Assembly (NCBI RefSeq): GCF_001442805.1
Contig: NZ_CP011131.1
Location: forward strand, 1 to 64,000
Direction: 5' to 3'
DNA length: 64,000 nucleotides
From: Lysobacter gummosus
GTDB taxonomy: Bacteria > Pseudomonadota > Gammaproteobacteria > Xanthomonadales > Xanthomonadaceae
Shown: positions 33,060-43,620 of the stretch, piece by piece
Position numbering within the stretch: position 1 is the stretch's first letter
Layout of the letters: every line of letters begins with the position of its first letter
Translations under genes and position numbers: made by a program
The notes under the pieces: model-generated
The model's input: the letters and a program-made list of their open reading frames with translations, nothing else
Databases searched by the model: none
What the model was told of the DNA's origin: nothing

Positions 33060-33791
33060 TTACCCTCCGCCGTACAACCGCTCCGCGCGCTGAAACAAAA
33101 TCCAGCTGGTGGCGATGTACTTGTCCCCACCCTTGGGCCGGTTGCCGCGATGGGTGTGGGTGAACGCCGCCGGCGCGATCAGCAGATCGCCCGCGCGCGG
33201 CGCGATCTTGCGGCGCTGGTAGAGAAACTCGGTCTCGCCCTCGCTGAAACCGTCGTTGAGATAGATCGTCCACAGCACATGCCGGTGCAGGGTTTCCGCG
33301 GTCTGATCGCGCGGATACAACTCGCAATGCCAGTACGGGTAACCGCCGCGATCGGCGGTGTAACGCTGCAGGTTGATCGCGCCCGGACGGAACACGGTCT
33401 GCGCGATCGGCGCCAAGGCGCCGTCGTCCATTTCGGCCATGCGCTCGGGCGTGAGGCGATGGCGCTTGCCGTCGGCGGCCGGCGCTTCGAGCATCAACGG
33501 CGCGATCATGGTGTGCGGATAACGCCGCAGATACTTCAGCAAGCCGCGGAACACCGCCAGATTCAACGCGACCTCCACATCCTTCCAACCCTCGCGGCCG
33601 GTGATGGTGAGATCGCGGCTGTCCTTCAGATCCGGCATCACGCCGCCGCCGACCCGGCCCGGTTCGCTGTCGCCGCTGGCGTCGAAGCGGCGCACGAGCT
33701 GCGCGCATTCCTCGCGCGTCAACGCCTGCGGATAGACCTCGATGAAATCGTCTGAGCCGGTGGGTGCAACGGAATCGGGCGTTGAGGACAT
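33060..33791 (-). CDS. Fe(II)/2-oxoglutarate-dependent oxygenase
   Basis: A 243-residue double-stranded beta-helix protein of the prolyl 4-hydroxylase-like group. Likely metal ligands are His155 and Glu157 (WHCELYPRD, an HxE variant of the usual HxD) and His214 (THTHRGN), with Lys224 ten residues later as the 2-oxoglutarate-binding residue (GGDKYIATSW). Substrate unknown. The ATG at 33791 is chosen; the frame is open further upstream without matching sequence. It is divergent from the fap-like operon. Confidence 0.8.
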   Translation of the reverse strand: MSSTPDSVAPTGSDDFIEVYPQALTREECAQLVRRFDASGDSEPGRVGGGVMPDLKDSRDLTITGREGWKDVEVALNLAVFRGLLKYLRRYPHTMIAPLMLEAPAADGKRHRLTPERMAEMDDGALAPIAQTVFRPGAINLQRYTADRGGYPYWHCELYPRDQTAETLHRHVLWTIYLNDGFSEGETEFLYQRRKIAPRAGDLLIAPAAFTHTHRGNRPKGGDKYIATSWILFQRAERLYGGG

Positions 33792-34095
33792 GGCAGGCGC
33801 TGGGCTGTGAGAGAACGCGCGAACGGCAAGCGCGTGGAAAGCGGCCATCCTCGCACGGGGGGCCGAGGTTGCAAAAAGGCAACGTCGGATCGACACGACG
33901 GCGGCCACGCCGTACAGGCGTCTCAAAGGTCCGCTGGACGGGCCTGAACGCATTCACCGAGCCAAAGCTGAGCAGGCGAATGCTGCGAGTGCGAATTTCA
34001 TCGGGCGTTGCGACAGCGCAACGTTTAGCGGCGGCCGCGCCGGCCACGCGCCGCTGTACTTCCTGAAATCTCTTTGAATTCATGGCCTTGCGAAC

Positions 34096-34112
34096 TTGGC
34101 ACGGCTTTCGCG
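34096..34112 (+). promoter_or_regulatory. Sigma-54 promoter of the fap-like operon
   Basis: TTGGCACGGCTTTCGCG has GG at 34098-34099 and GC at 34110-34111 with exactly ten bases between, matching the -24/-12 consensus TTGGCACG-N4-TTGC with one mismatch. It lies about 75 bp ahead of the first operon gene. The rest of 33792-34185 shows nothing else I can name. Confidence 0.8.
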
Positions 34113-34185
34113 TTAGCCCTGCTCGTCCGCCTCGATTGCCCCGATGCGGGCCCCGCGAGAGTCCCCTGCCCCGGAGTTCGCCGTC

Positions 34186-34716
34186 ATGCCTCTGTTCGCC
34201 CCTGGTATTCCACACCGCCCCTGGTTGCGGGCCCTGAGTGTCGCCGCGGTCTGCATGGCGGCCGGACTCGCCCCCGTGGCGGCGGCGCAGGACCGCGATT
34301 CCGGCGAGCAGGACACCAACATCGTCATCGCTCGCACCGTCCACCCGCGCATCGCCTACCGCGCGCTGCCGGCGCAGGACAATCCGGTGCACACCCAGGC
34401 CACGGCGTTTCCCGGGCAGGTCTTCCACGGCACGCTGGAGCGTTCGCTGTCGCCGTTGCTGGGCGATGCCGAACTCGATCAGCACGGTTCCACCGGCCTG
34501 AGCCCGCTGCTCGCCGGCAACACCCTCAACGGATTGTTGGTGCCGGTCAGCGGCGCGGCCAATCCCATGCTCGGCCCGTCCGCGTCGACGGCGCCGATGG
34601 GCCCGACCGCCAGCGTCGGCGGCGCGGTCACCGCCGCGACCGCCGGCCTCGGCGATCGCATCACCGGCAGCGTAATGCAGGCGCTGGCGCCGCAACTGCA
34701 GGGGAGCGGGCGATGA
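34186..34716 (+). CDS. Exported protein, first gene of fap-like operon (possible FapA counterpart)
   Basis: A 176-residue protein with a signal peptide (about 1-35, ending VAAAQD) and a low-complexity mature part rich in Gly, Ala, Leu and Pro, with segments LSPLLGDAELDQHGSTGLSPLLAGNTLNGLL. No family is recognised from sequence. By position it corresponds to FapA, the small periplasmic protein encoded first in the Pseudomonas fap operon, but similarity is not evident by eye. It overlaps the next gene by 4 bp (ATGA). Start chosen for the signal peptide; the frame is open to 34144. Confidence 0.65.
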   Translation: MPLFAPGIPHRPWLRALSVAAVCMAAGLAPVAAAQDRDSGEQDTNIVIARTVHPRIAYRALPAQDNPVHTQATAFPGQVFHGTLERSLSPLLGDAELDQHGSTGLSPLLAGNTLNGLLVPVSGAANPMLGPSASTAPMGPTASVGGAVTAATAGLGDRITGSVMQALAPQLQGSGR

Positions 34717-35348
34717 ACGCACGCCTGCGCTCGCTGCGCCTCACGCCGCTGTGGCTGGCCGCGTGCCTGCTCGCCACCGCGATCTCCACCGACAGCAACG
34801 CCCAATCGCCGAGCGGCCGCGATCGCGCCCACATCGGCGCGGCCGGCCGCGGCATCGACGGCCGCGTCGCGATCAACCAAAGCGCGGGCACCGGCAACAC
34901 ACAAGCCAATCTGGCCGCGATCGCGATCGCCCCCGACGGCCTGGCCCTCATCGAACAGCACGCGCGGCAACGCAGCGCGATCGGCGCGCAAGACCGGCGG
35001 CGCGAGGCGAGCGCGCGTATCGACGCGCAGGCCTTCGCCGGCCACGACGGATTGCTTTCGCTCAACCAGAGCGCAGGCGCCGGCAACGCGCAACTCAATT
35101 CCTTCGTGCTGGCGCAGGACGCGCAAACCGGCATCGCGCACATCGCCGGCGTCGACGACAACGCCCTGGCCGACGTGGCCGGCGCGCCGAGCATCGAAAC
35201 CCAAAGCGCGCCCAGCCTGCGCGATGCGGCCATCGCCGACGACGCCTTCCGCGGCGGCCGGGGCGTGCTGCAACTCAATCAGACGGCGGGGACCGGCAAC
35301 GCGTCGGTCAACGCCATCGTGCTCCAACTGCCCGGGGGCGTTCCATAA
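34713..35348 (+). CDS. Repeat-containing exported protein (possible FapB counterpart)
   Basis: A 211-residue protein with a signal peptide (about 1-30, SNAQ). The motif NQSAGxGNxQxN occurs three times: at about 54-66, 117-129 and 188-200, each preceded by a hydrophobic strand and separated by linkers. Such Gln/Asn-rich strand-turn repeats are the signature of amyloid subunits (curli, Fap). By position and repeat type it may be the nucleator FapB. It lies 52 bp ahead of the first FapC-like gene. Confidence 0.7.
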   Translation: MNARLRSLRLTPLWLAACLLATAISTDSNAQSPSGRDRAHIGAAGRGIDGRVAINQSAGTGNTQANLAAIAIAPDGLALIEQHARQRSAIGAQDRRREASARIDAQAFAGHDGLLSLNQSAGAGNAQLNSFVLAQDAQTGIAHIAGVDDNALADVAGAPSIETQSAPSLRDAAIADDAFRGGRGVLQLNQTAGTGNASVNAIVLQLPGGVP

Positions 35349-35400
35349 AAAAAGACGGCAGAACCCAAGCACTACTCAACCACCACCAGGAGAGAGAACC

Positions 35401-36168
35401 ATGAAAGCGCAACTGACTCTGCTTGCCCTCGCGCTCGGCCTCGTCATCGCCGCGCCCGCCTACGCCGAAGGCGACGACGCCCAGATTCACAGCACCACCA
35501 GCATCGGCAACAACATCGATGTATCCGGCAAGGTGCGGGTGAAAGGCAAGATCCGCGTGGCGTCCGAATCGGCCGCGACCGTCGATCAGGACCAGACCAC
35601 CGAAGGCAATGCCTCGCTCGGCGACGGCGACCACAGCGCCCGCCTCGGCGGCAACGCGTTGTCGGATGCGCAAGGCAACATCGGCGCCAACGTCGCCGCC
35701 GGCGTCGGCAACGTCCAGGCCAACGACACCGCGCTGTCGGCCGTGGACGGCGAGAAAGTCTTCGCCTCGGCCATGACCTTCAACAGCCAGAGCTCGGGCT
35801 TCAACTACGCCTACTCCAGCCAGCAGGACACCTACTACGACGCCACCCTCAACGGCGATGCGCTGTCGAACGCGAAGGGCAACATCGGCGTCAACGTCGC
35901 CGCCGGCGTCGGCAACGCGCAGAGCAATGCGATGGCCGCTTCGGTCAACAGCTCCGGCACGATCGCCAAGGCCGCCTCCGACAGCGAGCAGGACGCGTGG
36001 ATGAACGAGCTGGCCGCGGCCTGCGACCTCGATACCTTCGCCACCCTGGCCGGCAACGCGCTGTCCGGCGCGCAGGGCAACATCGGCGCCAACGTCGCCG
36101 CCGGTGTCGGCAACCTGCAGCACAACGGCCTGTCGATCGCGACCGCGTCCTGCGGCAGCTGCCAGTAA
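35401..36168 (+). CDS. FapC-like functional amyloid subunit, copy 1
   Basis: A 255-residue exported protein (signal peptide 1-22, AYAEG). Three imperfect 30-residue repeats lie at about 84-113, 152-181 and 218-247, with core GNIGxNVAAGVGNxQxN, separated by variable linkers. It ends in CGSC at 251-254. Three repeats with linkers and a C-terminal CxxC is the architecture described for Pseudomonas FapC, the main amyloid fibre subunit. A good AGGAGAG ribosome binding site precedes the ATG at 35401. It is about 75% alike to the next gene in the first 120 residues, so the two are tandem duplicates. Confidence 0.8.
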   Translation: MKAQLTLLALALGLVIAAPAYAEGDDAQIHSTTSIGNNIDVSGKVRVKGKIRVASESAATVDQDQTTEGNASLGDGDHSARLGGNALSDAQGNIGANVAAGVGNVQANDTALSAVDGEKVFASAMTFNSQSSGFNYAYSSQQDTYYDATLNGDALSNAKGNIGVNVAAGVGNAQSNAMAASVNSSGTIAKAASDSEQDAWMNELAAACDLDTFATLAGNALSGAQGNIGANVAAGVGNLQHNGLSIATASCGSCQ

Positions 36169-36226
36169 TGCGCACGCGGCCGCGGCGCAGGCCGCGGCCG
36201 TTCCGCGCTTCTAACGGAGAACGACC

Positions 36227-37042
36227 ATGAAACTCCAATACACCGTGCTGGCGATCGCGCTGGCCGGCATCGTGGCCTTGCCGGCCTTCGCCGAAGGCGA
36301 CGCCGCCGACATCCACAGCAACACCTACGTCGGCAATCACATCGACGTATCGGGCCGGGTCAAGGTTCGCGGCAAGATCAAGGTCGCGTCCGAATCGGCG
36401 GCGACGGTCGATCAGGACCAGACCACGCTGCTCAATCAATCGCTCGGCGACGGCGACCACGACGCCCATCTGGGCGGCGATGCGCTGTCGGACGCGCAGG
36501 GCAACATCGGCGCCAACGTCGCCGCCGGCGTCGGCAACGCCCAGGCCAACGACACCGCGCTGTCGGCGGTGGACGGCGAGAAAGTGTTCGCCTCGGCGAT
36601 GGTGTTCGGCAGCCAGGCCTCGCTCGGCAACTTCGCCACCACCAACACCGACGACACGTACTACGACGCAACGCTCGACGGCAACGCGCTGTCGAACGCC
36701 AAGGGCAACATCGGCGTCAACGTCGCCGCCGGCGTCGGCAACGCGCAGGGCAACGGCATGGCCGCCTCGGTCAACAGCTCCGGCACCGTGGCGATCGCCA
36801 CCTCCGACAGCGAACAGCTCTCGGTCGGCAATCTGCTCGACAGCGAAGGCCGGCGCATGAGCCTGGACCTGTACGCCTCGCTCGACGGCAATGCGCTGTC
36901 CGGCGCGCAAGGCAACATCGGCGTCAACGTCGCCTCGGGCATCGGCAACCTGCAGCACAACGGTCTGTCGATCGCGACCGCGTCCTGCGGCGCCTGCGCA
37001 CCGCCGCCGCCGCCTCCGCCCTGCACCAGTTGCGGCGACTGA
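36227..37042 (+). CDS. FapC-like functional amyloid subunit, copy 2
   Basis: A 271-residue paralog of the preceding gene product with signal peptide 1-22 (AFAEG) and repeats at about 84-113, 152-181 and 221-250. It differs at the end: after CGAC (254-257) comes a proline run and a second CxxC, CTSC at 266-269. The second cysteine pair is unusual and could allow cross-linking or anchoring. The tandem copies suggest two co-assembling or differently expressed fibre subunits. Confidence 0.8.
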   Translation: MKLQYTVLAIALAGIVALPAFAEGDAADIHSNTYVGNHIDVSGRVKVRGKIKVASESAATVDQDQTTLLNQSLGDGDHDAHLGGDALSDAQGNIGANVAAGVGNAQANDTALSAVDGEKVFASAMVFGSQASLGNFATTNTDDTYYDATLDGNALSNAKGNIGVNVAAGVGNAQGNGMAASVNSSGTVAIATSDSEQLSVGNLLDSEGRRMSLDLYASLDGNALSGAQGNIGVNVASGIGNLQHNGLSIATASCGACAPPPPPPPCTSCGD

Positions 37043-37131
37043 GTGTCCCCAGTCCCGCCTCCGCGATGACCGCGCGTCGGTCATCGCGGAGTTCGATCCA
37101 TCCGCCCTGTTCCAACCCGAGCCCCGCCGCC

Positions 37132-37860
37132 ATGTCGCCGATCCGCACCGCATTGCTCGCTGCCCTGACCGTCGCCGCCTTGTCCGGCGGCGCGCGCGCG
37201 CAGTCGGCTGAGGAACGCCGCACCGCGGTCGATGTCACCCGCCTCACCGGCAACGGCACTTCGCCGATCGTCAAGCCGATGCGCACGCTGCGCGATCTGC
37301 GTTATCGCGATCTGCTGCATCAGCGCTACGACTTCAGCTGCGGCTCGGCGGCGCTGGCCAGCCTGCTGCACTACGGCTACGGCCTTGAGGTCAGCGAGCC
37401 CGAGCTGATCAAGAAGATGATGATCGGCGTGGACCCGAACGAAGTCGTGCGCAACGGCTTCTCGATGCTGGACATGAAGCGCTACGTCGAAAGCATCGGC
37501 CTGCGCGCGCACGGCTTCCGCATAGACGCCGACGCCTTGTACCGCCTGCAGATGCCGGTGATCGCGCTGCTGGACCTGAAGGGCTATCGCCACTTCGTCG
37601 TGGTCAAGGGCGCGGCCGGCGGCCGCGTATTCGTCGCCGATCCCGCGCTGGGCCATCGGGTGATGCAGGAAGCCGACTTCGTGCGCGGCTGGAACGGCAT
37701 CGTCCTGGCCGTGGTCTCCGATCAGCCGATGCGCACCGATTCCTACCTGGTCAACAACCGCAGCTCGCCGGCCTTGCAACGCCGTGTGGACGCGCTCGAC
37801 CGCGCGACCGCGCCGCCGCGCGTGGTCGAGTTCGGTCTGGTGATCGCCGATCTGTTCTGA
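37132..37860 (+). CDS. C39-like peptidase, FapD-like
   Basis: A 242-residue exported protein (signal peptide about 1-24) with a papain-like C39 peptidase domain. Visible catalytic elements are Cys in DFSCGSAALASLLHYGYG, His in GYRHFVVVKG and Asp in VFVADPALGH. C39 enzymes cleave double-glycine-type leaders. FapD of Pseudomonas is a C39-like protease required for fibre export, and its position after the FapC-like genes agrees. The ATG at 37132 is chosen because it opens a signal peptide. Confidence 0.85.
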   Translation: MSPIRTALLAALTVAALSGGARAQSAEERRTAVDVTRLTGNGTSPIVKPMRTLRDLRYRDLLHQRYDFSCGSAALASLLHYGYGLEVSEPELIKKMMIGVDPNEVVRNGFSMLDMKRYVESIGLRAHGFRIDADALYRLQMPVIALLDLKGYRHFVVVKGAAGGRVFVADPALGHRVMQEADFVRGWNGIVLAVVSDQPMRTDSYLVNNRSSPALQRRVDALDRATAPPRVVEFGLVIADLF

Positions 37861-37908
37861 CTTTCCGCGTCGCGAGCCGCGACGCATGCACTCGTTCCGA
37901 GGTGTCCG

Positions 37909-38664
37909 ATGAACCGCCCATCACTCCCCCGTGCCCTGTTCTCGGCCCTCCTGGCAGCGGCGGCCGCGGCGCAACCCGCGGTCGCCCTGCCCCCTTTGCG
38001 CGCGGATCTGGTCGATGAAGCCACTCTGGCCAAGATCAGCGGCAAATACTTCGGCGCACAGATGCTGGTCGGTCTGCGCGTGGACGTCGTCTCCAGCTTG
38101 AACACGCCGCAGCAAGGCGCGGCAATGGCGAGCGGCTCGCTGCTGGTGCAACGCGACGGCGCCGGCTTCGCGGTGTCGGTCGATGCGCGCAGCCACGCCG
38201 AAGCCGGCAGCGGCGGCGCATTGCCGACCAACAGCAGCGCGAGCGGCGCGGATGCGGTGCAGGTGCGCGGCATCGGCCAGATCGCGCAGATCGCCGGCGA
38301 CGGCAATCGCCTGTCCAATCTGACCTCGATCGGTTTCGTCGATCAGGCCCAGGCCAACACCGACGCCAGCGGTTTCAACGGCCAAAGCCGGAGCGCCGCG
38401 AGCGCCGGCACGATGCAGGCGCGAGTGACTTTCCTCGACGGCGGCGTGCAGGTGGGCATCGAAGGGCCGGGCGCGTCGATACAGCAGCGCCTGGCTGCCG
38501 GCGCGCAAGGCGGCATCGCCCAGCTTGGCCGCATCGCCGGCAACGGCATGGATGCCGGCAACCGATTGCAGCTGCAGATCGTCACCGCGGCGATGACGCC
38601 GCAACTGAGCCGGCAACTCGGCCTGCAGCAGGCGCTCGACAGCCTGCGCGCGCTGCCTCGCTGA
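37909..38664 (+). CDS. Exported protein, FapE-like by position
   Basis: A 251-residue protein with a signal peptide (about 1-26, AVALP). The mature part holds Gly/Asn-rich segments IGQIAQIAGDGNRLSNLTS and IAQLGRIAGNGMDAGNRLQ that resemble diverged amyloid repeats. It ends in a helix (LSRQLGLQQALDSLRAL). FapE in Pseudomonas is a minor fibre component or extracellular assembly factor; assignment here is mainly by synteny. It lies 48 bp after the peptidase gene. Confidence 0.68.
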   Translation: MNRPSLPRALFSALLAAAAAAQPAVALPPLRADLVDEATLAKISGKYFGAQMLVGLRVDVVSSLNTPQQGAAMASGSLLVQRDGAGFAVSVDARSHAEAGSGGALPTNSSASGADAVQVRGIGQIAQIAGDGNRLSNLTSIGFVDQAQANTDASGFNGQSRSAASAGTMQARVTFLDGGVQVGIEGPGASIQQRLAAGAQGGIAQLGRIAGNGMDAGNRLQLQIVTAAMTPQLSRQLGLQQALDSLRALPR

Positions 38665-38682
38665 ATTCACCTTCCTCTTGTC

Positions 38683-40047
38683 ATGGACGCCAGGATCATG
38701 CGCGCCGCTCACGCACCGCTTTACCTCGCCCTCGCCCTCGCGCTGGCCCTGAGCGCGCCCGCGCGCGCGGCCGACGACGGCGGCGAGGCCATCGAACAAC
38801 AGCGCGCGCAGTTCAAATCGCTGCACCAGCGCATGCTCGACATGAGCCGCGAGCTGGACGCGCAGAAGGCCGAAATCCAGCAACTGCGCGATCAGCTCGG
38901 CGACCTGCAACTGACCCAGCGTGGCCGCGGCCTGTCCGCGCCGGACGGTCCGCAGCAGGAACTGGTCGGCCAGGACGCGCGCGACGTCGCCGAACAGGCC
39001 AAGCGCAAGGCCGCCGCCACCGCGGCCAGCGACCAGGATCGCGACGCGCCGGTGCAGGTCGGCCAGACCCAGCGCGCCGAGGACGCGCAACGCCGCGAGC
39101 AGGAAAAAGCCCTGGTGGTGCGCGAACACGCGCCCTTGTTCGAGCGCAAGTTCACCCTCGATACCGGCCTGAGCTACAGCTACTACGACCGCCGCCAACT
39201 CGCGCTCAGCGGCTTTCTGGCCCTGGACGCGATCTTCCTGGGCAGCATCAACCTCGATCAGACCAAGGCCAGCGTCGCCACCTTCGAACTCAGCGGCCGC
39301 TACGGCCTCACCGACCGCATCAGCGTCGAAGCCAGCCTGCCGTACGTGTACCGCGACTCGCGCTTCGTCAGCGGCGGCGCCGGCGGCGCGTCCAGCGTGG
39401 TCAGCGAAGTGCGCATGCGTTCGCAGGGCGTGGGCGACGCCAGCGTCGCGGCGTACTACCAGTGGGTGAAGGAATCGCAGCGCTGGCCCGACATCGTCAC
39501 CAGCCTGCGCGTGCGCGCGCCTACCGGACGCGATCCGTTCGGCCTGAAGCTGATCCAGCCCGACGGCGACAACAACAACCTCAACATCCCCGAGAACCTG
39601 CCGACCGGCTCGGGCGTGTGGGCGGCGACGGTCAACGTCTCGGCGCTGCGCACCTACGATCCGGTGATCCTGTTCGGCAACGTCGGCTACACCTACAACC
39701 AGCCGACGAACTTCGGCGACATCTCGCCAGTGGCCGAGCAGATCTCGCCGGCGCGGGTCGAACTGGGCAACGCGATCCAGCTCAGCGGCGGCCTGGCCAT
39801 CGCGCTGAACGATCGCTCGGCGGTGAGCTTCTCGGTCGCCACGTCGGTGACCGGCGCGACCCACATCACCGCGCCGGGCGGCAGCAAGCGCCGCGTCCCG
39901 GGCAGCTCCAGCAATTCGACCACCCTGAACATCGGCGCGAGCTACGTGCTGCCCTCGGGCTGGACCATCAACGGCCAACTGGCCGCCGGCCTCACTCCGG
40001 ACGCGCCGAATTTCGTGTTTTCGATGCGCGGTTCGAAGTCCTTCTGA
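38683..40047 (+). CDS. Outer-membrane beta-barrel channel, FapF-like
   Basis: A 454-residue protein with signal peptide (about 1-29), a coiled coil (about 35-72; SLHQRMLDMSRELDAQKAEI), a charged Ala/Glu/Arg linker to about 145, and a beta-barrel domain starting KFTLDTGLSYSYYDRRQL and ending in a C-terminal Phe (MRGSKSF), the BAM recognition signal. Coiled coil plus C-terminal barrel matches FapF, the trimeric secretion pore for Fap subunits. An alternative ATG lies at 38698. It is the last operon gene; a terminator follows at 40101. Confidence 0.82.
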   Translation: MDARIMRAAHAPLYLALALALALSAPARAADDGGEAIEQQRAQFKSLHQRMLDMSRELDAQKAEIQQLRDQLGDLQLTQRGRGLSAPDGPQQELVGQDARDVAEQAKRKAAATAASDQDRDAPVQVGQTQRAEDAQRREQEKALVVREHAPLFERKFTLDTGLSYSYYDRRQLALSGFLALDAIFLGSINLDQTKASVATFELSGRYGLTDRISVEASLPYVYRDSRFVSGGAGGASSVVSEVRMRSQGVGDASVAAYYQWVKESQRWPDIVTSLRVRAPTGRDPFGLKLIQPDGDNNNLNIPENLPTGSGVWAATVNVSALRTYDPVILFGNVGYTYNQPTNFGDISPVAEQISPARVELGNAIQLSGGLAIALNDRSAVSFSVATSVTGATHITAPGGSKRRVPGSSSNSTTLNIGASYVLPSGWTINGQLAAGLTPDAPNFVFSMRGSKSF

Positions 40048-40100
40048 GCCGCGCGGCGATTCAAGCTTTCAGCGCAACGGCGTCGCACGACGCCCCACGC

Positions 40101-40133
40101 CGGGGCGGAGGCCCGATCTCCGCCCCGTTTTTT
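40101..40133 (+). terminator. Terminator of the fap-like operon
   Basis: A 10-bp stem, CGGGGCGGAG (40101-40110) and CTCCGCCCCG (40118-40127), with a seven-base loop and six Ts. Confidence 0.92.
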
Positions 40134-40279
40134 ATGTGACGCGCGCTTGCAGCGATTTCAATTGCAATTGCGTGGCGCTTCGCCGCGGCGCCAGAATCGC
40201 GCCACTCACGATCGCGATATCGGGAAGCACCGCCGATGAACCATTGGTTTGTTCCTGCATCGGCAGCGTGGGCGCGGTC

Positions 40280-40657
40280 ATGAACCTGCATTGGCGTTTG
40301 TTCGTTCCGACCAAGACCGAACCGGCGGCGCGCAAGCTCGCGGCGAGGCATTTCCGCCGCGCCCAGGTCGAAGTGTCTGCGTTGACGGTCGCGCCGTACG
40401 AAAAGGGCGGCTACAAGATCCAGGCGCGCAGAGAGCACGCGACCGCATCGTGGTCCGACAGCGTGGTGGCGGCGATCGCCCTGGCCCAGCGCACCGGTCT
40501 TGGCTGGAGCCTCAATGGCCTGATCATCGATGAGCTGGCGCTGTGGAGCACACAGGCTTCGACCCCGGGCATCGATGCGATCGAAGTGGTCGTGCACCGG
40601 ATCGAACCGGCGAGGACGGAGGCCGCGGACGAACCGGGCGACCCGGCGACGGCTTAA
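40280..40657 (+). CDS. Hypothetical protein
   Basis: A 125-residue soluble protein, MNLHWRLFVPTKTEPAARKLAARHFRRAQVEVSAL..., with no signal peptide or recognised domain; alternating strands and one helix (SDSVVAAIALAQRTG) suggest a small alpha/beta fold. The frame is open back to 40136 but the upstream part has poor composition. It lies between the fap-like operon terminator and the activator gene, and its end overlaps the activator's end by 4 bp. Confidence 0.65.
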   Translation: MNLHWRLFVPTKTEPAARKLAARHFRRAQVEVSALTVAPYEKGGYKIQARREHATASWSDSVVAAIALAQRTGLGWSLNGLIIDELALWSTQASTPGIDAIEVVVHRIEPARTEAADEPGDPATA

Positions 40658-42120
40658 GCCGTGCGCACGGCGTCGTCGTCGATCTCTTCTTCGCCGCCGC
40701 GCATGCCCAGCCGCTGCATCAACCGATACAAGGTCACCCGCGACACGCCCAGCTCGCGCGCCGATTCGCCCAGGCGCCGGCGATTGCGGTGCAAGGCGCG
40801 TTCGATGGCTTCGCGCGTGGCCAGATCGCGGGCTTCTTCCAGGGTCATCGGCACGCCGTCGGCGGCATCGTCGATGTGCAGGTCGGCGGCGGTGATGTAG
40901 CGGCCTTCGGCCATGACCACGGCCTGGCGCACGCGGTTGATCAGTTCGCGCACGTTGCCCGGCCACGGATGCCGGTGCATGGCCTGGCGCGCGCACGGCG
41001 AGAAACCCTTGATGCCGCGCGAGGTTTCCTGCGCATAACGTTGCAGGGCGTGGTCGGCGATCAGGTCGATGTCGCCGCCGCGTTCGCGCAGCGGCGGCTG
41101 TTGCAGGCGCAGCACGCACAGGCGGTGGAACAGGTCGGCGCGGAAGCGGCCGTCGGCGATGGCCTGATCGAGATCGTGATGGGTGGCCGAGACGATGCGC
41201 ACATCCACCGGGATCTGTTCGTGCCCGCCCAGGCGCTCGATCGAGCCTTGCTGCAGGAACCGCAGCAGCGAGGCCTGGCTCTCCATCGGCAGGTCGCCGA
41301 TTTCGTCCAGGAACAAGGTGCCGCCGTTGGCCATCTCGATCCGGCCGAGCTTGCGTTGCTGCGCGCCGGTGAAGGCGCCGCGCTCGTAGCCGAACAATTC
41401 CGACTGCACCAGGTTGTGCGGGATCGCGCCGCAGTTGATGGCGATGAACGGATTGCGGCTGCGATGCGACTGCCGGTGCACGGCCATCGCCGCCAGTTCC
41501 TTGCCGGTGCCGGTCTCGCCGGCGATGAACACCGGCGCGTCGGTGGAGGCGGCCTTGTGCAGGCCGCGGCACAGCGCGCGGATGGCTTCGCTTTCGCCGA
41601 TCATGCCGTCCACGCCGCCGCTGCACAGCACGTCGGCGCTGCCGGCGCCGCAGGCCAGCGCGGCCATGCCGTAGGCGTGGCCGATCACCGTGTGCAGCAC
41701 CGCTTCCGGGCAGGGCAGGGTGACGTAGTCGTAGCAGTAGTCGCGGATCAGCCGGCGCGCGGGTTCGTCGTCGAGCTGGGCCGAGGCGACGCCGGCGATC
41801 CAGCCGGCGTTCTGCGCGGCCAGGGCGGGGCCGAGTTCTTCCAGGTCGCGCGCGTCGAAGCCTTCGCGCAGATCGATCAGCACCGCATGCGGCAGGCGCG
41901 GGCTGGACTGCAGTTGCCGCAGCGCGGCGCGCGCGTCGGGCGCGCGGCGCAGGGTCCAGCCCAGGTTCTGCAGCGGGGCGAGCGCATGCATGCGTCCGGC
42001 GCCGCCGGGACTGAGGTAGATGAGTTCGCGCGCACCGTCGCCGCGCGCGGCAACGACCCGCGCGGACGCAGGATGCGTTGCGGAGCGACTCCCCAAGTCG
42101 CCACGGATGCCGTTGGCCAT
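40654..42120 (-). CDS. Sigma-54-dependent activator, VpsR-like
   Basis: A 488-residue bacterial enhancer-binding protein. The N-terminal receiver-like domain (about 32-150, LIYLSPGG...AVLIDLREG) resembles VpsR-type regulators and lacks a clear full acidic pocket. The AAA+ domain has Walker A GETGTGKE at 201-208, the sigma-54 contact loop GAFTGA at 248-253 and Walker B TLFLDEI at 268-274. A Fis-type helix-turn-helix is at 451-472 (ESARELGVSRVTLYRLMQR). It is convergent with the fap-like operon, which has a sigma-54 promoter, so it is a strong candidate for its activator (inference). Confidence 0.92.
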   Translation of the reverse strand: MANGIRGDLGSRSATHPASARVVAARGDGARELIYLSPGGAGRMHALAPLQNLGWTLRRAPDARAALRQLQSSPRLPHAVLIDLREGFDARDLEELGPALAAQNAGWIAGVASAQLDDEPARRLIRDYCYDYVTLPCPEAVLHTVIGHAYGMAALACGAGSADVLCSGGVDGMIGESEAIRALCRGLHKAASTDAPVFIAGETGTGKELAAMAVHRQSHRSRNPFIAINCGAIPHNLVQSELFGYERGAFTGAQQRKLGRIEMANGGTLFLDEIGDLPMESQASLLRFLQQGSIERLGGHEQIPVDVRIVSATHHDLDQAIADGRFRADLFHRLCVLRLQQPPLRERGGDIDLIADHALQRYAQETSRGIKGFSPCARQAMHRHPWPGNVRELINRVRQAVVMAEGRYITAADLHIDDAADGVPMTLEEARDLATREAIERALHRNRRRLGESARELGVSRVTLYRLMQRLGMRGGEEEIDDDAVRTA

Positions 42121-42152
42121 AGCTGTATTCCCCGCCGGCGCAAGGCGCCTGC

Positions 42153-42169
42153 AATTACCGCAAGTAATT
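42153..42169. promoter_or_regulatory. Palindrome upstream of the activator gene
   Basis: AATTAC-N5-GTAATT, an AT-rich inverted repeat in a GC-rich setting, lies 33-49 bp ahead of the activator's start codon. It could be an operator or part of its promoter. The remaining intergenic stretch to 42523 holds no gene. Confidence 0.45.
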
Positions 42170-42523
42170 ACTCCAACGCAGAGTCCGGCGAAAGGCGGTC
42201 ACCGACGGCCGGTAGGCCGGGCTTGCTGCGTTTATGCGGGCGGCTTGGCGGGGTGCAAGAAACGAGCCACGGAATTGTTTCGATCTAACCGCGGTCACAC
42301 ACAGCATACGGCGAAGAATGTTGGCGAAGACGGGACGCGCGAAAGCACGCGCTGCGACGACATCTTCACCGCAGCGCACGAAGCCCACGGCGCTGCGCGG
42401 CGCTCAGAGCCATGCCCGCGCCGTCCTCGTCGCTGGAACCATGTCGGATATTTACTTCGCGCCCGTCGCGGACATCACCCACGCACCCTCACCGCCGCGC
42501 GAACCACGTCCCAGGCCGGCGGG

Positions 42524-42564: not shown

Positions 42565-43620
42565 TCACGCCTGCTCGGCGTCGAACTCATGGTGATAGCG
42601 CACCGCGGTCTCGACCTCGGCCTTGCTGCCCAGGAACACCGGCACGCGCATGTGCAGGCCGGTGGGCTGCACTTCCAGCAGGCGCTGGCGGCCGGTGCTG
42701 GCGGCGCCGCCGGCCTGTTCCACCAGGAAACTCATCGGGTTGGCTTCGTACATCAGCCGCAGCTTGCCGCCCTGCGCCTCGCACTTGGCGTCGAGCGGAT
42801 AGCTGAAGATGCCGCCGCGGGTCAGGATGCGGTGCACGTCGGCGACCATCGAGGCCACCCAGCGCATGTTGAAGTCCTTGCCGCGCGGGCCTTCCTTGCC
42901 GGCCAGCAGATCGGTCACGTAGGCCTGCATCGGCGGCTGCCAGTGGCGCTGGTTGGACATGTTGACCGCGAATTCCTTCGTGTCGTCCGGGATCTGCATG
43001 CCGCGCGTGGTCAGCACGAAACTGCCGACTTCGCGATCGAGCGTGAACGCGTGGGTGCCGTTGCCGATGGTCAGCACCAGCATGGTGCTGGGGCCGTAGG
43101 TGGTGTAGCCGGCGCAGACCTGCTCGGTGCCGGGCTGCAGGAAGTCCTTGTCCTGCGCCTGGGTCACGCCTTCGGGCGCGCGCAGCACCGAGAAGATGGT
43201 GCCGACCGAGATGTTGACGTCGATGTTGGACGAACCGTCGAGGGGATCGAACAGCAGCAGGTAGTTGCCGCGCGGGTAGACGTCGGGGATGGGATGCGAG
43301 GTGTCCATTTCCTCCGAGGCCAGGCCGGCGAGGTGGCCGCCCCAGGCGTTGGCTTCCAGCAGGATTTCGTTGCTGAGCACGTCGAGCTTCTTCTGCGCCT
43401 CGCCCTGGATGTTCATGCTGGCCGCGCCGGGCGTGCCGGCATCGCCGAGCACACCGCCCAGGGCGCCCTTGCCGACCGCGATGGAGATCGTCTTGCAGGC
43501 GCGGGCGACGACTTCGATCAGCAGGCGCAGGTCGGGATTGATGCGCCCGGCGCGCTGTTCCTCGATCAGGTAGCGGGTCAGGGAGATGGAGGTGTTGCTG
43601 GGGCTCAGGACGGAGGACAT
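42565..43620 (-). CDS. fbp: Class 1 fructose-1,6-bisphosphatase
   Basis: Hydrolyses fructose 1,6-bisphosphate to fructose 6-phosphate, the committed step of gluconeogenesis. The 351-residue protein has the N-terminal [10 protein letters not shown] segment, the metal site [15 protein letters not shown], the sugar-phosphate region ([15 protein letters not shown]) and the active-site loop [21 protein letters not shown]. Its length is typical for the proteobacterial enzyme. Single gene with its own terminator. Confidence 0.96.

Follow-up and report, generated by a model that had tools for sequence, protein, structure and literature searches.

A fap operon of Lysobacter gummosus with tandem fapC genes and a proline- and cysteine-rich tail on the last copy

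The window analysed here comprises the first 64,000 nucleotides of contig NZ_CP011131.1 of Lysobacter gummosus, whose 6.06 Mb genome is a single contig. Judged by sequence, it holds a complete fap (functional amyloid) operon, with seven consecutive genes on the same strand filling positions 34186–40047 in the order fapA-B-C1-C2-D-E-F. A preliminary description had proposed such an operon here, and the proposal is borne out: each of the seven proteins matches its NCBIfam model, and the genes follow the canonical order. The frames were taken from open reading frames with start codons chosen by hand and are as follows (E, expectation value).

34186..34716, + strand: fapA, predicted chaperone; NF058617, weak for this protein by itself, E 0.017
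34713..35348, + strand: fapB, minor three-repeat subunit and putative nucleator; NF058557, E 4e-30
35401..36168, + strand: fapC1, predicted major fibre subunit with three repeats and the C-terminus CGSCQ; NF058558, E 4.1e-28; PDB FapC 9nqd, E 2.9e-15
36227..37042, + strand: fapC2, second FapC, three repeats plus a tail; NF058558, E 2e-28
37132..37860, + strand: fapD, C39-type peptidase; NF058616, E 1.6e-59; Peptidase_C39 (PF03412), E 4.7e-23
37909..38664, + strand: fapE, putative fibre-associated protein; NF058559, E 7.5e-11, residues 17–249
38683..40047, + strand: fapF, predicted outer-membrane secretion channel; NF058560, E 1.6e-99; PDB 5o65 FapF, E 1.9e-76

Putative signal peptides are present at the N-termini of all seven proteins (read from the sequence, without a predictor), and the closest named relatives of the window proteins are mostly from Lysobacter, with FapF 89% identical to that of L. 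capsici. The first two genes had been described simply as encoding small proteins; the first is FapA, but the second encodes a three-repeat subunit, FapB (repeats read from the sequence). Both FapC proteins contain three GNIGxNVAAGxGNxQxN-type repeats and a C-terminal CxxC, as previously described, although FapC2 has two Cys pairs rather than one. This gives the operon three amyloid-repeat genes (fapB, fapC1 and fapC2). FapD, correctly anticipated as a C39-like peptidase, keeps Gln64, Cys70, His154 and Asp170 (read from the sequence), which we take to have catalytic roles. Its PDB sequence matches are to the C39 domains of peptidase-transporters (best E 2.2e-7), and the only two other FapD matches in the genome are weak (E 2.5e-7 and 2.6e-7) and lie in larger frames. 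The FapE-like protein is matched by the FapE model, and two of its stretches, GIGQIAQIAGDGNRLSN and GIAQLGRIAGNGMDAGN, resemble degenerate FapB repeats; a comparison of FapE and FapB profiles (hhalign probability 39%) is suggestive only. FapF agrees with its earlier outline as a coiled-coil/beta-barrel protein, having a coiled-coil-like N-terminal part (read from the sequence) and a barrel that aligns with solved FapF 5o65 across residues 150–449.

The preliminary description had expected the peptidase and barrel proteins to resemble FapD and FapF, and both do, at the E values listed. Its proposed profile comparison gives matches to the FapB, FapC, FapD, FapE and FapF models, below their cut-offs, and a weak one to FapA. 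Its proposed structure prediction was carried through for FapC2, and the FapF barrel is matched by sequence alignment only. FapC2 was modelled with AlphaFold2 on an alignment of 60 rows; the model has a mean predicted local distance difference test score of 73.7, with residues 1–49 below 50, and Foldseek matches it to the FapC fibril structure 9u4u (E 1.5e-8) and the FapC entry 9nqd (E 4.1e-4), with no others at E 0.001 or less.

Three points weigh against this assignment. None of the seven proteins reaches the curated NCBIfam cut-off (score/cut-off: FapA 15.4/110, FapB 104.9/190, FapC1 99/195, FapC2 100.1/195, FapD 200.9/330, FapE 41.7/250, FapF 333.6/700), FapA taken by itself matches only weakly, and the TM-scores (by query) of the two FapC2 fold matches are a modest 0.37 and 0.25. 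The cut-offs are a naming rule for equivalogs of FapA–F, not a biological definition, and FapC scores above its own in just 3 of the 297 genomes of the family, among the matches listed. The FapA model NF058617 is matched at E 0.05 or better by 28 of 46 aligned FapA relatives (of 49 FapA found; best E 3.1e-12), and the chaperone is often absent from known fap operons. FapC is found in 14 of the 20 genomes of the genus, and all 14 operons (the window and L044–L056, read with profiles built in this analysis) have the order A-B-C-C-D-E-F on one strand, so the arrangement is not a matter of chance. That the repeat proteins are adhesins rather than amyloid subunits, with FapF acting as a porin, is very improbable: FapF does match PF13557 (above cut-off) and Porin_4 (below cut-off), and in the public names of the best 120 of 704 FapC2 homologues hypothetical protein prevails, cell surface protein occurs at times, trimeric autotransporter adhesin once and, among named entries, Fap never, but the six Fap families are complete and in order, the FapC2 model has a FapC fold match and FapF matches a solved FapF by sequence. 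A pilus system of the Fil type (FilB/FilC), whose C39 peptidase and barrel are related, can be virtually dismissed, since the matches of FapD to pilus_FilB (3.9e-32) and FapF to pilus_FilC (1.3e-10) are far poorer than those to the FapD and FapF models, and the FapB, FapC and FapE models match as well. The operon is thus assigned to Fap by the sequence tests, weakly for FapA, and we have little doubt that it would make Fap fibres, although fibre formation and amyloid function are inferred.

The doubled fapC gene was followed across the family. A FapC match is present in 80 of the 297 genomes among the matches listed; 49 of these have a single long FapC each (strong rows among the matches listed), and the other 31 have short or broken FapC. 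The 41 loci compared comprise the 31 short or broken genomes minus G137 (FapC matches split over two contigs) and G295 (FapC in pieces, genome 57% complete), a subset of 10 from the 49 genomes with long FapC, and a further two Lysobacter that are not in the family sample, one of them being the window. They include 24 tandem arrays, seven single short FapC and 10 single long FapC; the arrays have two (20 loci), three (three loci) or four (one locus) fapC copies. In four of the 10 long-type loci FapB was labelled FapC by profile score, and the two were separated by score. No tandem fapC was found in 17 operons with FapC outside the family (nine of family f12 and eight of other families, including L111 with a partial FapC only), which were drawn from 20 regions chosen among search hits and are not a survey; of the three other regions one is unclear, one has FapB only at a contig end and one has no fap gene.

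Several loci have irregularities of their own. The fapA of L061 and the fapF of L069 each lie in two separate frames, as degraded genes or sequence errors, and in L101 and L102, operons of other families, fapC precedes fapB. Three proteins named as from Pseudomonas sp. CGJS7 (P0003, P0011 and P0123) match window FapC2 at 89 and 76% identity and FapF at 85%, and this record looks mislabelled.

The second copy differs from the first at its C-terminus.

36986..37039, + strand: FapC2 tail CGACAPPPPPPPCTSCGD, with the first CxxC, seven Pro and a second Cys pair

The same arrangement of CxxC, Pro-rich stretch (4–13 Pro) and second Cys pair is present in the last fapC, adjoining fapD, of 22 of the 24 arrays, and in none of the 29 upstream array copies or the seven single short copies. 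All 22 tails have four Cys; the spacing of the first pair is always 2, and that of the second is 2 (11 cases), 3 (eight cases), or 4, 5 and 6 (one each). This variation favours disulfides over a metal site as the role of the tail Cys residues. Among the best 120 of 704 FapC2 homologues, 30 (including the window's) have a C-terminus with at least four Cys and three Pro. A plain end following CxxC is seen in 64, and the remaining 26 are of neither type, several of them lacking Cys.

In core trees, with signal and tail removed, the C1 and C2 copies of Lysobacter are largely apart, and those from elsewhere cluster with their own genus. The label 'last' requires eight changes in the core tree of 60 rows. 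A single clade of last copies, as expected of one ancient FapC2 gene, was rejected for the cores (23 rows; approximately unbiased test, p 1.65e-5). When the 14 Lysobacter pairs are aligned by codon, the front of fapC looks partly gene-converted, with linker 2 and the tail kept distinct: at columns 61–180 identity is 0.804 between C1 and C2 of the same genome, 0.746 between C1 and C2 across genomes and 0.787 between C1 copies, whereas at columns 541–660 (linker 2) it is 0.674 between C1 and C2 but 0.876 and 0.825 within each copy type. Independent fapC duplications in other genera are possible.

These observations bear on whether FapC2 has a role of its own. Tandem fapC genes might instead simply raise the dose of one interchangeable subunit, the last-copy tail being a tolerated decoration, and the varying copy number (two, three or four), the clustering of non-Lysobacter cores by genus and the partly homogenised front of C1 and C2 (0.80 within against 0.75 across genomes) are what this would predict. 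That the tail occurs at no position but the last in five genus codes, that it has four Cys in 22 of 22 cases, and that linker 2 has diverged between C1 and C2 (0.67) but is conserved within each in Lysobacter (0.88 and 0.83) all speak otherwise, and we regard dosage by itself as unlikely. FapC2 is probably a distinct co-subunit, and disulfide cross-linking or anchoring by its tail is a tentative suggestion, somewhat short of an even chance. Some results run contrary to a distinct FapC2: the tail rule is broken by L062, both copies of which lack Cys, and by L064, with three copies and no tail; a single genus supplies 14 of the 22 tails, the others numbering 4, 2, 1 and 1 genomes, and because only five genus codes are covered (with arrays of two, three and four copies) they are not 22 independent events; and a single old FapC2 gene in unbroken descent is unsupported by the cores, as above.

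Each fapC of the window is followed by a potential RNA hairpin, and fapF by a terminator-like motif.

36170..36208, + strand: hairpin in the fapC1–fapC2 spacer with an 11 bp inner stem (36176–36186/36191–36201), an outer 4 bp and no U-tract; free energy (dG) -34.1, z-score -3.8
37057..37093, + strand: hairpin in the fapC2–fapD spacer, 15 pairs
40101..40127, + strand: intrinsic-terminator-like site after fapF, 11 bp stem and T run

The last of these has the longest stem among the terminator-like sites of the stretch (seven found against 5.1 expected in shuffles). Strong stems are present in 28 of 29 fapC–fapC spacers (dG -22 to -47, z -1.4 to -4.5; means over all 29, -33.4 and -3.0; 60 shuffles each), the exception being the 32-base spacer of L062. 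Control spacers have none (fapB–fapC, n = 24, mean z +0.74; fapD–fapE, n = 20 of 24, mean z +0.32), and fapC–fapD spacers have a mean z of -1.77 over only nine that are 20–200 bases long by the chosen starts. A stem of at least nine pairs occurs within 90 bases past the stop codon of 51 of the 53 array fapC genes (28/29 upstream, 23/24 last), compared with 13/145 and 19/120 in letter shuffles of upstream and last copies, 1/24 for fapB and 5/24 for fapE. This threshold is loose in GC-rich DNA because fapD (14/24), fapA (15/25) and fapF (16/24) and their shuffles (21, 42 and 35%) often pass as well.

In 16 distinct upstream stems, 140 of the 144 arm positions pair with their own partner, falling to 50% once arms are swapped; in 17 distinct last stems the figures are 147 of 153 and 49%. 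The stems were selected for pairing, so high own-pairing is built in; what is informative is that stem sequences change between genera with the pairing kept, which argues for selection on pairing. A rival reading, possible but a minority view, takes the hairpins as partial terminators of transcription, or as products of the duplication itself, rather than as stabilisers of the message: the stems are very stable, and a duplicated gene-plus-hairpin unit would give one hairpin per fapC, but no U-tract follows the window spacer hairpin, pairing is kept as the stem sequence changes between genera, and the stem is not a dispersed repeat. A dispersed-repeat origin was rejected, the perfect stem occurring once in the genome; looser matches (up to three mismatches) number 227, against 412 for a reversed control. 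An Rfam search returned nothing relevant; a match to mir-375 on the other strand (E 0.0085, below the gathering threshold) is taken as chance.

A role of the hairpins as message stabilisers that set the doses of the two FapC proteins faces a further difficulty. Stems of at least nine pairs also follow the sole fapC of long-type (10/10), short-type (5/7), f12 (6/9) and other-family (7/7) operons. In the same analysis a looser rule filed two FapB (L109 and L118) as upstream FapC outside the arrays. The hairpin is therefore a general fap feature, and it may favour all FapC over FapD–F rather than FapC1 over FapC2.

The control region upstream of fapA and a regulatory gene downstream of fapF contain the following.

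33868..33883, no strand: first copy of the palindrome GTTGC-N6-GCAAC and a candidate activator site, conserved exactly in all 14 Lysobacter operons
34007..34022, no strand: the same palindrome, copy 2, exact in six of the 14 and inexact in the other eight
34096..34113, + strand: sigma-54 type -24/-12 element, TTGGCACG-N4-TCGCG
40654..42120, - strand: gene convergent to the operon, predicted sigma-54 activator with a VpsR domain (Sigma54_activat, E 6.9e-69; VpsR, E 5.4e-19), positional counterpart of BrfA

The -24 octamer TTGGCACG is exact in 13 of the 14 Lysobacter operons, with one mismatch in L049, and the -12 GC is present in all 14. The -12 box of the window is TCGC, in contrast to the sigma-54 consensus TTGC; in the tandem/short lineage it is TCGC, TGGC or TAGC, and TTGC in eight of nine f12 operons. 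One copy of rpoN was found in the genome, and no sigma-70 type site was found at 33500–42300. Two palindromes within 155 bp are not expected by chance. Over the whole genome the palindrome shows no enrichment (19 sites; reversed control, 18), and a genome-wide regulon marked by it is unsupported. Relatives of the activator occur in 38 of the 41 loci, all but L063, L065 and L066 within their fetched stretches. The fapA promoter of P. fluorescens PF07 is reported to be RpoN-dependent, and fap expression there to need BrfA, whose gene lies next to fapF on the downstream side in reverse orientation (PMC9207406); fap control by BrfA is also described in PMC13101488, and Burkholderia BerB is given as an RpoN-dependent activator of biofilm genes that binds cyclic di-GMP (PMC5552954). 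By this analogy BrfA-type control of the window operon is likely; it counts against the analogy that the activator was likened to BrfA by position and VpsR domain rather than by sequence.

The operon and its activator belong to a lineage of their own. Trees of FapD plus FapF contain two deep groups, one of the short and tandem FapC loci of the family and the other of all others compared, with the family's long-FapC operons nesting near family f12; these are quick trees with a midpoint root and long branches flagged. The activator tree has the same two-way split. Within the sample compared, and as far as these trees go, this is a deeply divergent Lysobacteraceae lineage of operon and activator alike, in keeping with the distinct lineage that had been proposed for tandem FapC.

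Both lineages occur in genus g4, as tandem arrays in L057 and L058 and as the long type in L074, L075, L079, L080, L082 and L083. The cassette is flanked by two genes that are not part of fap.

33060..33791, - strand: divergent 2-oxoglutarate-Fe(II) oxygenase, left flank; PF13640, E 6.5e-8
42565..43620, - strand: fructose-1,6-bisphosphatase (fbp), right flank; PF00316, E 1.2e-53

An oxygenase match is present in 28 of the 41 loci and in both fap lineages, two (L061 and L067) being doubtful in the tree, where L057 and L058 group with five of the six long-type g4 loci (support 84). In g4 the right-flank fructose-bisphosphatase (identified in L057 and L080) is 81–90% identical between types in all six long-type loci. 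On the left, the identity is 74–92% for a response regulator (recognised in L057) in the three loci whose fetched stretch reaches it, whereas the activators between those flanks are only 43–53% identical. Both lineages share one site in g4, and in-place replacement of a fap-plus-activator cassette is the simplest reading of these sequences; the alternative is old coexistence of two cassettes followed by losses. Horizontal transfer is described as infrequent in Fap evolution (PMC3792158). The oxygenase was not found in the fetched stretches of four g32 arrays (L060, L063, L065 and L066), three of which also lack the activator there, and their fap operon may therefore sit at another chromosomal site. 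A link between the oxygenase and hydroxylation of the polyproline tail was dropped because the oxygenase also adjoins long-FapC operons that have no tail, and because these four g32 arrays have the tail with no oxygenase found in the fetched stretch.

The window operon shares gene content, order, three-repeat FapB and FapC, the C39 peptidase FapD and the FapF channel with the Pseudomonas fapABCDEF operons of UK4, PAO1 and PF07; like that of PF07, it also has an RpoN-type promoter element and a neighbouring activator gene in reverse orientation (PMC9207406). It differs in having two fapC genes, a Pro/Cys tail on the last and proteins that are all below the NCBIfam cut-offs. Fap was reported in Xanthomonadales, the same order, in 2013 (Stenotrophomonas and Rhodanobacter, described as fapABCDEF; PMC3792158), so its presence in this genome is not by itself surprising. 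The family's 10 long-FapC operons and the nine of f12 have one FapC and fall in the other deep FapD/FapF clade; they are not assigned to Stenotrophomonas or Rhodanobacter. Curli (csgBAC/csgDEFG) works alike, its secreted amyloid likewise having a nucleator, a chaperone and a channel in the outer membrane (PMC12822426), but its repeat, channel and protease families differ, no Csg family is among the window protein matches, and the operon is not a member. One survey gives two fapBC genes for 94.5% of 1172 fap clusters and restricts its FapC analysis to those, and no description of clusters with more than two was found in its text (PMC12392863). No account of tandem fapC, the Pro/Cys tail or a hairpin after fapC was found among the literature matches listed, figures and supplements aside. 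The Fap system itself is known; the tandem-fapC form with a tailed last copy is new.

Taken as a whole, the best explanation, which we consider quite probable, is a divergent Fap operon in which FapC1 would be the bulk subunit and FapC2 a lower-dose subunit for cross-linking or anchoring. The convergent VpsR-domain activator and RpoN would most likely switch on expression at the -24/-12 element, as in the BrfA pathway of PF07. By analogy with Pseudomonas, FapA–F would enter the periplasm by Sec, FapA would hold subunits unfolded, FapD would work with the FapF channel, and FapB, FapC1, FapC2 and FapE would be exported through it to build an amyloid fibre at the cell surface, making the biofilm stronger. 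The strong spacer hairpin should favour the upstream message and so lower the dose of FapC2, whose Pro-rich stalk may carry the second Cys pair away from the core for disulfide cross-linking or anchoring. A fuller proposal, advanced with more doubt than belief, is a two-component fibre of a plain FapC shaft and a position-locked, tailed last copy as dedicated cross-linker or anchor, with dose set by the hairpins after each fapC, cores partly homogenised, and a fap-plus-activator cassette of ~8–9 kb exchanged in place between the response regulator/oxygenase pair and fbp.

Fap is a tough protein fibre that strengthens biofilms, and here its subunit gene is doubled, with a Cys- and Pro-rich tail on the second copy. 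It has been called a 'fixed' system (PMC12822426). This lineage contrasts with such surveys in having two to four subunit genes with a specialised last member and stems after 51 of 53 array fapC genes, as do two anciently separated cassettes at one locus in one genus; in-place exchange, if true, would go against Fap being seen as a fixed system passed on vertically. A role in polymerisation and inter-fibre stabilisation has been suggested for the FapC CxxC (PMC6173800), and a second pair of Cys occurring naturally on a stalk offers a direct way to test it; PMC12520557 gave nothing further on this point. Lysobacter has uses in biocontrol, and among the named entries listed these proteins appear mostly as hypothetical or cell surface proteins, never as Fap.

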